IMG/VR virus record: IMGVR_UViG_3300025154_000187 | Coordinates: 1 to 42,895 of that record | Length of the DNA: 42,895 nucleotides | Direction: 5' to 3' (one strand) | Origin: a virus | The notes under the pieces: generated by a model | Database searches by the model: none | What the model saw: only the letters and a program-made list of their open reading frames with translations | What the model was told of the DNA's origin: nothing | Part shown: positions 19,844-40,767 of the stretch, in pieces | Numbering within the stretch: the stretch's first letter is position 1 | Layout: each line of letters opens with the position of its first letter | Program-made: the position numbers and the translations under genes

Positions 19844-20397
19844 TAGTTAATTATTGCACTTATGATTTATTGGCAAATGCAATTAATTCAATAAGAAAAT
19901 ATTATCCTAATTTAAATATAGTGGTTATAGATAATACTCCAAAAGCAAAAGTAAAAAAAATAAAAGATGTTAAAACATTAAATACTTTTGAAAATTTAGG
20001 ACATGGAACCGGTTTAAATATAGGAATATCACTAATTAAATCAAATGAAATACTGATATTTGATAGTGATATAATAATGAAAAAGCCATGTATAGAAGAA
20101 ATGTATTATAACATAGGATGTAATTATGGGATAGGAAATATAATTACAGTAAACAAAAAAGGATTTAATGATTATGTAGGAATAAAATACTTACATCCGC
20201 ATTTTTGTATGATAAATAGAAGCATGTATTACAAGTACCATAGATTTATTCATCATGGGGCACCTTTTATTAAAACTATGATAGAGTTAGATAATAAATA
20301 TTTAGTTAATTTTGATACATCAAAATATATTGCTCACTTAGGAAGAGGCACTGTTAATTTAAAACCTAAAGAATTTATGGAAAATTGGGAAACATAA
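19819..20397 (+). CDS. Family 2-type glycosyltransferase, 192 aa
   Basis: The N-terminus has TGVVVNYCTYDLLANAINSI and NLNIVVIDNT, the standard GT2 Rossmann-like opening. NEILIFDSDIIM at about 76-87 contains the DSD metal-binding motif. The FENLGHGTGLNIGI segment matches the GxGxGxNxGi loop of rhamnosyl-type GT2 enzymes. It closes the glycan island; about 70 non-coding bases follow before the head protease. Confidence 0.75.
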   Translation: MDKDITGVVVNYCTYDLLANAINSIRKYYPNLNIVVIDNTPKAKVKKIKDVKTLNTFENLGHGTGLNIGISLIKSNEILIFDSDIIMKKPCIEEMYYNIGCNYGIGNIITVNKKGFNDYVGIKYLHPHFCMINRSMYYKYHRFIHHGAPFIKTMIELDNKYLVNFDTSKYIAHLGRGTVNLKPKEFMENWET

Positions 20398-31365: not shown

Positions 31366-31399
31366 GAGAGGGTAGCTAAACGAGCTGCCCTCTTTTTTT
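31366..31399 (+). terminator. Strong intrinsic terminator at the end of the virion block
   Basis: GAGGGTAGCT (31368-31377) pairs with AGCTGCCCTC (31383-31392) through a 5-base loop, with one G-T wobble and a run of seven T. It ends the virion transcription unit 23 bases before operator module 2, insulating the two regulons. Confidence 0.88.
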
Positions 31400-31421
31400 A
31401 TGCTATCAAACATGTTTTTTT

Positions 31422-31465
31422 ATGATAAATGTCATAGATTTATTTAATTTCATACTGTATCTTTG
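31422..31465 (+). promoter_or_regulatory. Operator-promoter module 2
   Basis: ATGATAAATGTCAT at 31422-31435, 22 bp spacer, then the -7 box TATCTTTG at 31458-31465 and the initial sequence GCAGAGT. Same spacing as modules 1, 3, 4 and 5. Drives the gene at 31502 after a leader of about 35 bases. Confidence 0.82.
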
Positions 31466-31501
31466 CAGAGTTAATTTTTAATAGTAATAAATAATAATAA
31501 A

Positions 31502-34667: not shown

Positions 34668-34816
34668 AAACACATTTAATAAAAAATAAAAGAATATTAG
34701 ATATGGATGTAACGAAAACCAAATGTGGTTTGCGTGGTGGTGATTTATTAAGAACTGAAAATATTAAAAAAGTAACATGTAAAAATTGTCTAAGGAAAAA
34801 GAATAGGTGTTTTTAA
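34664..34816 (+). CDS. Small protein with TCxxCL knuckle, 50 aa
   Basis: The protein includes KTKCGLRGGDLL and VTCKNCLRKKNRC, so Cys at three regions may bind zinc, and the C-terminus is strongly basic. Short TCxxCL proteins recur in phages. ATGA coupling to YopX-like gene. The last gene before operator module 4. Confidence 0.5.
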   Translation: MKTHLIKNKRILDMDVTKTKCGLRGGDLLRTENIKKVTCKNCLRKKNRCF

Positions 34817-34828
34817 ACATATTTCTAT

Positions 34829-34872
34829 ATGATAAAAATCATGTTTAAATCAAATTTAAAGTAGTTACTTCG
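34829..34872 (+). promoter_or_regulatory. Operator-promoter module 4
   Basis: ATGATAAAAATCAT at 34829-34842, 22 bp, then TTACTTCG at 34865-34872 in the -7 position, a poorer match to TAnnTTTG than the other modules, consistent with dependence on an activator. The initial transcribed region GCAGAGTAAAATTGAGTAA is close to that of module 5. Drives the recombination genes. Confidence 0.8.
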
Positions 34873-34934
34873 CAGAGTAAAATTGAGTAAGCCTAATCTC
34901 ATTAAAATTAGGCGAAATTTAAATATAAGTAAAA

Positions 34935-37538: not shown

Positions 37539-37664
37539 ATGCAAACAATCTTAGATTTCACTTTATTAAAATATACCAATATTAATTGGGGAGTTTTTGG
37601 CAGCCTGCATACCTGCATATTTCACTCCCCTTTTTTTATTGGATTTTTATTATATTATGAATAA
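37539..37664 (+). CDS. Possible leader ORF, 41 aa, spanning the terminator
   Basis: ATG 37539 opens MQTILDFTLLKYTNINWGVF and the frame crosses the whole terminator stem-loop, ending at 37664 just inside the next gene's start (37657). A ribosome translating it would block the stem. This is the geometry of a leader-peptide attenuator, but the peptide has no run of any one amino acid that would give a sensing role, so it may be fortuitous. Confidence 0.3.
   Translation: MQTILDFTLLKYTNINWGVFGSLHTCIFHSPFFIGFLLYYE
37588..37637 (+). terminator. Intrinsic terminator / attenuator before the replication genes
   Basis: GGGGAGT (37588-37594) pairs with ACTCCCC (37624-37630), followed by seven T. The 29-base loop contains a smaller nested hairpin (TGCA-TACC-TGCA). 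It lies between the promoter at 37508 and the genes at 37657-40055, so read-through must be possible for them to be expressed from here. Confidence 0.78.
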
Positions 37665-37821: not shown

Positions 37822-38370
37822 ATGAGAGATTCAACAATTATTTATCGTAGTTTTTATGAAGCAATAAAAGAATTGCCTAAAAAAAATCAAGCTGACCTAT
37901 GGGAAGCTATATTTGAATACTCATTAAATTTTAATGAAATTAAATTAATTGGTATTTCTGAAACAGTTTTTAAATTAATAAAACCGCAACTTGATTCTAA
38001 CATAAAAAAATATAAAGATGGTTGCAAAGGCAAAGAGTATGGTATTCAGGGAGGTAGACCAAAAAAAAATAACCCCACAAGAACCCCACAGAAACCCCAC
38101 AAGAACCCCACAGAAACCCCTAATGATAATGATAATGATAATGTAAATTATAATGTAAATGAAAATGTAAATGTAAATATTAATGACGTTATAAAATATT
38201 TTTCTTTAAAAGGATATACAAAAGAATCTGCAATAAAATTTTATAATTATTATGAAGCTGCAAACTGGATTAATAAAGATGGCAAAGAAGTTAAAAACTG
38301 GAAATTAACAGCAGTTCAAGTTTGGTTTAAGCCAGAAAATGAAAAACCTAAAAGTAAATTTCAACCATAA
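37822..38370 (+). CDS. Replication-initiator-like protein (DUF6291-type), 182 aa
   Basis: The N-terminal MRDSTIIYRSFYEAIKELPK then NQADLWEAIFEYSLNF is the DUF6291-like domain of Bacteroidetes phages. A Gly/Lys/Pro/Asn-rich linker (GGRPKKNNPTRTP, NPTETPNDNDND) follows, then a C-terminal helix-rich domain (IKYFSLKGYTKESAIKFYNY) as in DnaD-like or helicase-loading proteins. It lies directly before the primase-helicase. The linker DNA holds iteron-like repeats (38071-38120). The replication role is inferred. Confidence 0.6.
   Translation: MRDSTIIYRSFYEAIKELPKKNQADLWEAIFEYSLNFNEIKLIGISETVFKLIKPQLDSNIKKYKDGCKGKEYGIQGGRPKKNNPTRTPQKPHKNPTETPNDNDNDNVNYNVNENVNVNINDVIKYFSLKGYTKESAIKFYNYYEAANWINKDGKEVKNWKLTAVQVWFKPENEKPKSKFQP
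38071..38185 (+). other. Candidate replication origin: tandem 11-bp iterons and A+T-rich tract
   Basis: Four and a half tandem copies of an 11-bp unit AACCCCACARR run from 38071 to 38120 (units at 38071, 38082, 38093, 38104 and a partial at 38115), roughly one helical turn apart. They are immediately followed by an A+T-rich repeat tract (TAATGATAATGATAATG... to about 38185). Iterons plus an unwinding element inside an initiator-like gene is the layout of the lambda O/ori region. Because 11 is not a multiple of 3, protein selection does not explain the DNA periodicity. Confidence 0.6.
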
Positions 38371-40055
38371 TGGAAAATATCACAGATTATAATTATTTAG
38401 GATTTAATCTTAAAGGCAAAACATCTGGGCAAATAAGAACTACTTGCATACATTGTTCACATTTAAGGAAAAAGAAAACAGACCCTTGTTGTAGTGTTAA
38501 TTTAGACGATGGGACTTATTATTGTCATAACTGCGAAAAGTCAGGAAGTTTACATAAATTTAAAAGGAATAAAGTTGAGGCAATAAAGTATATTATTCCG
38601 TTATGGAAAAATAAAACTGAAATACCTGATAAAGTTGTTAAATGGTTTGAAACTCGCAAAATAAGTCAAAAAACATTGATGGAAATGAAAATAACATACG
38701 GCAATGATTATTTTCCTCAAATAGAAAAAGAACAAAGTTGTATTGAATTTAATTATTTCAAAGACAATGAACTTATAAATGTAAAGTATAGAACTGGAGA
38801 TAAATTATTCAAACTTCATAAAGGTAGTGAATTAATATTTTATAATTATGATTCTATTTTAAAAAATAAAGAAATAGTAATCGTAGAAGGCGAAATTGAT
38901 TGTTTGAGTTATATTGAAGCTGGCATTAGAAATGTAATTTCAGTTCCTAATGGTGCTAATTTGAATAAAAACAACCTTCAATACTTAGATAGTTGTATTG
39001 ATATATTTGATAATATAGATAAGGTCTATTTAGCTACTGACAATGATATTGCAGGTATTAATTTAAGGAATGAATTAATAAGAAGGTTGGGAAGTGATAA
39101 ATGCTTTATTGTTGATTTTAATGATTGCAAAGATGCTAATGAATATTTAATTAAATATGGATTATTTGAACTTAAAAAAACTATTGAATTAGCCACAGAA
39201 ATTCAAATTGAAGGTATTTTTAAAGTAGAAAATTTTGAGGAAGAGTTAGATGTGCTTTATTCAAAAGGATTGCAACCTGGACTAAAGATAGGATTTAATA
39301 AGTTAGATAATTTAATTACTTGGGAAAAATCAAAGCTTGCAATAGTAACGGGCATACCTTCACATGGTAAATCTGAGTTTATAGACCAGATAATTGAAAG
39401 ATTAAATGCATTACATAAATGGAAATTTGGTATATTTTCGCCAGAATGTTTTCCTATTCAAATTCATGCTGCAAATTTAATAAGTAAAATAACAGGAAAA
39501 GTGTTTAATGAAAATAGGTTAAGCATAGATGAATATTTTGAAGCAAAAAAATATTTAAATGATAATTTTTATTTTATAAAGCCAGAAGACAGCGGGTATT
39601 ATTTAGATAATATCTTAACAAAAGCTAAGGTTCTAATTAAAAAGTATGGTATTGATGGATTAATTATAGACCCGTATAATAGACTTGAACATGCCTTACC
39701 TTCTGGCATGCCTGAAACTAATTATATTAGTCAATTACTTGATAAATTAACTAATTTTTCACAGGCTAATAACATATTAATATTTTTAGTTGCACACCCT
39801 CGCAAGATGTTAAAACAAAAGGGTAATAATTATTATGAAGTTCCAAACTTATATGATATAAATGGTAGTGCTAATTTTTACAATAAAGCAGACTATGGAT
39901 TAACTGTTTATAGAAATTATAATTTAGGTGGTATATGCGAGGTACATGTGCAAAAAGTAAAAAGAAAAAATTTAGGAACTACTGGACTTGTAACATTTAA
40001 TTATGATATGGATTCAGGAAGGTTTATTGAGCAAGAATTAAATAATGTTTTTTAA
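38370..40055 (+). CDS. Bifunctional primase-helicase (T7 gp4-like), 561 aa
   Basis: Zinc finger: Cys26, Cys29, Cys52 and Cys55 (CIHC...YCHNC). Toprim primase: IVEGEIDCLS (E173) and YLATDNDIAG (D224, D226). Helicase: Walker A GIPSHGKSE at 328-336, Walker B LIIDP at 431-435 and FLVAHPRKM at 472-480. This is the domain order of T7 gp4-type enzymes: template-dependent primer synthesis coupled to DnaB-like strand unwinding. It overlaps the initiator-like gene by one base. The phage lacks its own polymerase in this window, so it would use the host's. Confidence 0.9.
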   Translation: MENITDYNYLGFNLKGKTSGQIRTTCIHCSHLRKKKTDPCCSVNLDDGTYYCHNCEKSGSLHKFKRNKVEAIKYIIPLWKNKTEIPDKVVKWFETRKISQKTLMEMKITYGNDYFPQIEKEQSCIEFNYFKDNELINVKYRTGDKLFKLHKGSELIFYNYDSILKNKEIVIVEGEIDCLSYIEAGIRNVISVPNGANLNKNNLQYLDSCIDIFDNIDKVYLATDNDIAGINLRNELIRRLGSDKCFIVDFNDCKDANEYLIKYGLFELKKTIELATEIQIEGIFKVENFEEELDVLYSKGLQPGLKIGFNKLDNLITWEKSKLAIVTGIPSHGKSEFIDQIIERLNALHKWKFGIFSPECFPIQIHAANLISKITGKVFNENRLSIDEYFEAKKYLNDNFYFIKPEDSGYYLDNILTKAKVLIKKYGIDGLIIDPYNRLEHALPSGMPETNYISQLLDKLTNFSQANNILIFLVAHPRKMLKQKGNNYYEVPNLYDINGSANFYNKADYGLTVYRNYNLGGICEVHVQKVKRKNLGTTGLVTFNYDMDSGRFIEQELNNVF

Positions 40056-40329: not shown

Positions 40330-40627
40330 TTATAAATGTTAGCAAATGAAAAATAAAGAATTTAGGTTAGCTGCAAAACTTTTAGAAATGGCAGATGAGG
40401 AATTCGGAAATCACGTATGCAATGATGTCTATGAATCATTTTGGGATGGATGGGAAAAAGAAGAAAGACAAGAATTTGTAAAACAATATCACGAATGGAA
40501 CGGCGACCCAGAAGAATTTGACCCAAACTTTTTACTATTGCCAGACTATGCAATAATGGGCTTTTTGGCTCACAAACTGCGTGTGTTGGCGGATTAAAAA
40601 TTTGCGTATAGCAACTGTTATAAATAA
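40320..40627 (+). other. Moron cassette C (G+C-richer gene between TTATAAATAA repeats)
   Basis: The gene at 40346-40597 is clearly richer in G+C than its neighbours. TTATAAATAA occurs directly at 40320-40329 and 40618-40627, flanking it. This parallels cassettes A and B, but the repeat is A+T-rich and could be coincidental. The end of the segment has the GCGTATAGCAACTGTTAT type of non-coding DNA also seen by cassette B's right side. Confidence 0.3.
40346..40597 (+). CDS. Conserved phage hypothetical protein, 83 aa (moron)
   Basis: AAKLLEMADEEFGNHVCNDV, DGWEKEERQEFVKQYHEWNG and DPNFLLLPDYAIMGFLAHKL give an acidic helical protein that I recognise as a widely shared hypothetical phage protein. 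No catalytic motif. Base composition contrasts with the A+T-rich flanks, so horizontal origin is likely. Operator module 5 lies 52 bases past its stop. Confidence 0.7.
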   Translation: MKNKEFRLAAKLLEMADEEFGNHVCNDVYESFWDGWEKEERQEFVKQYHEWNGDPEEFDPNFLLLPDYAIMGFLAHKLRVLAD

Positions 40628-40649
40628 GTGTTAAACAACATATTTTATT

Positions 40650-40693
40650 ATGACAAAAATCATTTTATGTTAAAATAACAATTTGTAATTTCG
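40650..40693 (+). promoter_or_regulatory. Operator-promoter module 5
   Basis: ATGACAAAAATCAT at 40650-40663, 22 bp, then TAATTTCG at 40686-40693 (one base off the -7 consensus), followed by GCAGAGTAAAAATAAGTAA, like module 4. The transcript has a leader of about 70 bases before the ATG at 40768. Confidence 0.82.
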
Positions 40694-40767
40694 CAGAGTA
40701 AAAATAAGTAATAAAGGAGTAACCTGAAAATCCATAAAGAGTAGGGAAAATTAAAAAAAAATAAAAA

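Follow-up and report, generated by a model that had tools for sequence, protein, structure and literature searches.

A Putative Lambda-Type Replication Origin within a Phage Gene for a DUF6291 Protein

The Locus and Its Genes

The stretch of DNA analysed here, referred to as the window, is a single viral record of 42,895 bp in which a short gene with an internal tandem repeat lies directly before a gene for a primase-helicase. The features on which the argument turns are as follows:

37822–38370, + strand: putative initiator gene, encoding a 182-aa DUF6291 protein (Pfam PF19808, E 2.4e-19)
37831–38064, + strand: DUF6291 domain, residues 4–81, predicted to form three helices (9–16, 20–36 and 44–68/72)
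38020–38067, + strand: basic, Gly-rich tail of the domain, here in its “long form” GCKGKEYGIQGGRPKK; among relatives the form of the tail predicts the repeat core
38071, 38082, 38093, 38104 and 38115, + strand: AACCCC cores of the iteron array, at exact 11-bp spacing
38121–38186, + strand: A+T-rich element (AATGAT/AATGTA)n, a putative DNA-unwinding element, TAATGATAATGATAATG..., encoding NDNDNDNVNYN...
38179–38367, + strand: C-terminal module YF..GYT.ESA..YNYYE..W..K.G..VKNWK....VWFKPENE, putatively the part that recruits helicase or primase
38370–40055, + strand: primase-helicase gene (Toprim plus DnaB_C, 561 aa; PHROG 239), its start sharing one base with the initiator stop

The encoded protein is laid out as a putative DNA-binding domain, an iteron-encoded linker, an Asn-rich linker and the C-terminal module. 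It matches DUF6291 with 69.7 bits against a gathering score of 27.2, covering positions 1–79 of the 79-position profile, and this is the only Pfam family to pass its cutoff in the 182-aa protein; Phage_rep_O, the lambda O family, gave no match there. AlphaFold models the domain as three helices, with pLDDT above 95 over most of residues 10–60, and the linker at low confidence. A fold comparison of DUF6291 models with solved structures returned no significant match, so the domain is not an evident winged helix, and a sequence search of the PDB gave no convincing relative (best E 0.03); the DNA-binding role of the domain is best called putative. Structural matches in BFVD are mainly other DUF6291 proteins, and some of the viral structural relatives carry the names “replisome organizer” or “replication initiator”. 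A profile-profile comparison with DUF1376/YdaU-like N-terminal domains gave no clear support for homology, the hhalign probability being 2.8% (E 0.016) over 34 columns of small alignments. The Pfam entry of DUF6291 gives its function as unknown, and a literature search returned no mention of the family.

Upstream in the window lie exonuclease-like and endonuclease VII-like genes, and the best relatives of the primase-helicase among annotated phages include Tenacibaculum and Flavobacterium phages. A search with window positions 20001–42895 found no near-identical phage record. Several other elements of the region can be recorded in passing. A terminator-like hairpin, GGGGAGT...ACTCCCCTTTTTTT, lies upstream of the initiator gene at about 37589–37637, with a loop longer than the terminator scan allows. 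A repeat of about 89 nt occurs in three copies (31395–31483, 34802–34890 and 40623–40711), in or beside intergenic gaps; the copies carry the palindrome ATGATAAAAATCAT or one similar to it, together with a TAnnTTyGCAGAGT element that looks like the -7 promoter box of Bacteroidetes, and the repeat is possibly a shared early promoter or operator. Directly after its third copy, on the + strand at 40714–40747, is a 37-bit match to Rfam RF02914 (DUF805b RNA, cis-regulatory).

The Repeat Array and the Adjoining A+T-Rich Element

A preliminary description of this DNA had placed 4.5 copies of an 11-bp unit, AACCCCACARR, within the reading frame of 37822–38370, and both TRF and a count of cores bear this out: positions 38071–38120 have a period of 11 in 4.5 copies and a period of 22 at 100% match, the units running AACCCCACAAG, AACCCCACAGA, AACCCCACAAG, AACCCCACAGA and a closing AACCCC. 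On the + strand of the 42,895-bp record AACCCC occurs five times, every copy in the array and 11 bp from the next, and its complement GGGGTT occurs three times in the window, none of them inside the array. The array is also the window's best stretch at lag 11 (28/33, against a maximum of 24/33 in 30 first-order Markov simulations) and at lag 22 (28/28, against 20/28 in 30 such simulations). When one mismatch to the 11-bp pattern is allowed, single sites are not rare in the window; the non-random feature is the tandem arrangement and not the single site.

The array had also been described as G+C-rich in A+T-rich surroundings and as directly followed by an A+T-rich repeat. Both points hold, the G+C fraction falling from 0.40–0.53 within the array to 0.13 over the next 90 bp, and the A+T-rich repeat, which extends to about 38186, reads TAATGATAATGATAATGATAATGTAAATT... 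from 38121 onwards. The last iteron is fused to the TAATG of this element. An interpretation of the AATGAT tract as a DnaA-trio element was dropped on inspection by eye, there being no TAG/TAA trios in register. Cumulative GC skew across the window is near-monotonic and uninformative, with no turn at the array.

An 11-bp Period Held at the DNA Level

Relatives of the gene were taken from viral contigs and bacterial genomes and reduced to 110 distinct ORFs, and the period was examined in the 91 non-redundant DUF6291 genes with a recognisable tract, as the DNA self-identity of the whole linker at each lag from 4 to 45. Self-identity stands at 0.535 for lag 11, 0.520 for lag 22, 0.532 for lag 33 and 0.475 for lag 44, and falls between 0.26 and 0.40 at every other lag. 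The preliminary description had named a period varying freely among relatives as grounds for giving up its reading; across these 91 relatives, 11 bp and its multiples are the only periods to emerge. A repeat in the protein alone would produce a signal at lag 33 and none at lag 11. Permuting codons lowers the expected lag-11 value to 0.338 (z 41.7), and even shuffling among synonymous codons, with the protein sequence left unchanged, gives 0.492 against the 0.535 observed (z 15.2), although these z-scores pool related sequences and overstate independence, in a non-redundant set drawn from Bacteroidota, Clostridia and other groups. Lags 22, 33 and 44 behave like lag 11, with z at most 4.7 against synonymous shuffles at other lags. 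The power of these statistics comes from pooling relatives, since the same synonymous test on the window gene alone is weak (p = 0.03).

The arrangement of the cores is similarly regular. Successive cores in the 91 genes lie exactly 11 bp apart in 287 intervals, against 28 intervals for the next commonest spacing, and in 71 of the 91 they occupy all three reading frames. The relatives share a register of AA[C/G]C, usually followed by AA and after that by a free spacer; some arrays reach 9–13 units, that of Riemerella phage GRAP2 has about eight, and by a simple pattern the last unit runs directly into TAATG in 74 of the 91 genes. The core can also be inverted: AACC-N3-GGTT was observed 23 times in genes with the short form of the tail against 0.19 expected, and AACCCC...GGGG pairs occur in some relatives (e.g., L023, L147 and L162). 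Relatives with inverted cores encode quite different peptides, such as KTTGFENKK as against NPTRTPQKP.

Codon choice changes abruptly where the array ends. Asn is encoded by AAT in 688 of 723 cases (95%) in the A+T-rich element, in 87 of 263 (33%, the remaining 67% being AAC) in the iteron linker, and in 720 of 1242 (58%) in the remainder of these genes. In 88 of 89 genes the G+C content of the tract is lower than that of either the domain or the C-terminal part, even where the gene reaches about 60% G+C. As judged from these comparisons of sequences, constraint at the DNA level is demonstrated for both the array and the A+T-rich element, and the proposal that codons do not set the 11-bp period has stood up.

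Tail Form and Repeat Core

The tail of the domain takes three forms among relatives, namely the long GxxxGxxGGRP found in the window, a short GGRP, and one with no GG. AACCCC is present at least twice in all 15 long-form genes and in none of the 76 other genes with a tract; AACC with A, G or T as the next base is present at least twice in 44 of the 47 short-form genes; and AAGC is present at least three times in all 29 genes of the no-GG form and in 6 of the 47 short-form genes. In the no-GG class the array starts at the position where the tail would be.

An independent scan that began from the DNA motif searched 2.9 million viral contigs with three patterns in which cores at 11-bp spacing run into TAATG. 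It returned 118 stretches, 113 of which fall within ORFs for DUF6291 proteins and in the frame expected; the other five comprise two ORFs cut by contig ends, a DUF6291 gene broken by stops (L289), a protein with another N-terminus and a similar plan (L307), and one unexplained case (L303). In L289 several stops interrupt the DUF6291 frame and the AACC array is intact, as might arise from decay or a reassigned stop codon. The tail was of the form predicted from the core in 98 of the 99 distinct genes found in this way, a match that may partly reflect joint inheritance because tail and array are adjacent on the DNA, and for which an independent-pairs comparison on the DUF6291 domain tree, with only three starred branches, leaves one usable pair.

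We judge it reasonably likely, from these sequence correlations, that the form of the tail sets a recognition code in which long, short and no-GG tails would correspond to AACCCC, AACC and AAGC, respectively, in self-encoded 11-bp half-sites that stand head to tail or as inverted pairs. With the same degree of assurance, DUF6291 would be a widespread phage family of origin-binding domains without a recognisable solved fold, whose initiator and origin specificities evolve as one cassette.

Neighbouring Genes and the C-Terminal Module

The next sizeable gene encodes a DnaB-type helicase or a Toprim-type primase-helicase at 14 of the 18 DUF6291 loci tested, two chromosomal controls being counted apart. 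These natural controls (L131 and L148) carry DUF6291 without array or tract and have no helicase or primase match next door. Several Bacteroidales contigs (L131 and several of L148–L170) have DUF6291 joined to a different C-terminal part, with neither repeats nor Asn tract, and perhaps represent a paralogous group with another role.

The C-terminal module is also found behind other N-termini, including HTH_36 with weak DnaD_N and Phage_rep_O in L009, a weak DUF1376 in L014, and other types, and many of these proteins have linker repeats of their own, with periods of 11, 12, 15, 21–24 or 23/35 bp. The module can thus be viewed as a putative common recruiting part mounted on interchangeable DNA-binding parts, each with sites of its own, which is the plan of lambda O. 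The linker repeats of L178, L200, L201, L219, L231 and others include 15-bp palindromic, 12/23/35-bp, 12-bp and 21/24-bp types, and module-sharing proteins with repeats of another period probably represent further types of intragenic origin.

Interpretation and Alternatives

Repeats inside the reading frame of the protein that would bind them, in the window and in relatives, a constrained A+T-rich region adjoining them, and an adjacent helicase or primase gene, in the window and at most of the loci tested, are the hallmarks of a known kind of origin. On this basis the stretch is very probably a lambda-type theta origin lying within its initiator gene, and DUF6291 would be a new origin-binding domain. 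The preliminary description had also proposed a lambda-type origin, and the order of repeats, A+T-rich element and replication gene is indeed conserved; what did not stand is kinship with lambda O, to whose family the protein does not belong. Binding, melting, helicase recruitment and the start of replication at the array are what we infer from this arrangement. DUF6291 molecules would sit side by side on the 11-bp units, which come once per helical turn and so would place all of them on one face of the DNA, each reading an AACCCC core through its domain and basic tail; the bound complex would strain and then melt the adjoining (AATGAT/AATGTA)n element, and the C-terminal module would place the Toprim/DnaB-type primase-helicase encoded by the next gene on the opened strand.

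The same half-sites could instead be operators through which the protein regulates its own operon of initiator and primase, the A+T-rich tract being incidental. Repeated half-sites with an inverted variant are typical of operators too, and the one-base overlap between the initiator gene and the next would suit an operon. The array, however, lies mid-gene and away from a promoter, a scan of the region for sigma-70 promoters and terminators found nothing above chance or shuffles, and neither a strongly conserved A+T-rich element fused to the array nor arrays as long as those of some relatives would be expected of operators, which leaves this reading unlikely. It is harder still to accept that DUF6291 serves some other DNA transaction here, as at a recombination hot spot or a packaging or partition site: the recombination genes upstream in the window would fit such a role, but what mostly lies next door in relatives is a gene for a replicative helicase or primase-helicase, and replication-initiator-like proteins share the C-terminal module.

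A purely protein-level explanation would make the stretch a flexible, low-complexity linker rich in Pro, Lys and Asn whose repeats arose by replication slippage, and the disorder implied by the low-confidence model and the simple sequence of the tract are what one would expect of such a linker. It is hardly credible because the period in most relatives is no multiple of 3 and is reinforced by the choice among synonymous codons, because the DNA core is kept when inverted even as the peptide changes wholly, and because Asn codons switch so sharply between array and tract.

An origin within a DUF6291 initiator gene would give a Pfam family of unknown function a testable role in hundreds of phage contigs; one viral scan, which used a single peptide pattern, confirmed 403 relatives, and the family occurs among bacteria too, in genomes from Bacteroidota, Clostridia and other groups. 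The DNA pattern finds such putative origins straight from sequence, the matched classes of tail and core offer a natural experiment in which joint changes of initiator and origin specificity can be followed, and so short a cassette of origin and initiator could be useful in making replicons for Bacteroidota that are hard to work with. A 51-kb circular “plasmid” of Bacteroides finegoldii (NZ_OY725926.1) carries an integrase, a DUF6291 gene with AACCCC iterons, and DnaB, and is probably a phage-plasmid or an excised prophage.

Comparison with Known Origins

The origin of lambda is placed midway along gene O, where its iterons adjoin an A+T-rich region; there are four of them in lambda and six in Stx phages, and each lambda iteron is itself an inverted repeat (PMC7466680). 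Direct repeats within the initiator gene and an adjoining A+T-rich region are common to those phages and to the window, where the repeats differ in being 11-bp half-sites set head to tail and the initiator in being a DUF6291 protein rather than one of the O family. The next gene here encodes a fused primase-helicase and not a P-type loader such as lambda P.

The Bacillus phage SPP1 offers a second parallel, as its oriL consists of direct repeats and an A+T-rich DUE within gene 38, which encodes the origin-binding protein gp38 (PMC6316719). Unlike the window, in which the AACCCC array occurs once only, SPP1 carries another origin, oriR, at a different place, and it encodes a separate loader, gp39, and helicase, gp40. 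In the origins of PICIs, too, iterons adjoin an A+T-rich melting site, and the genes for primase and initiator are close neighbours (PMC6092414); these origins lie directly 3′ of the initiator gene, with two sets of iterons flanking the A+T-rich region, in contrast to the single set within the gene found here. The type of origin is therefore already known, and what is new is the initiator family, the arrays of 11-bp half-sites and the correspondence between core and tail; the assignment of DUF6291 as an origin initiator itself appears to be new, despite database names such as “replisome organizer”.
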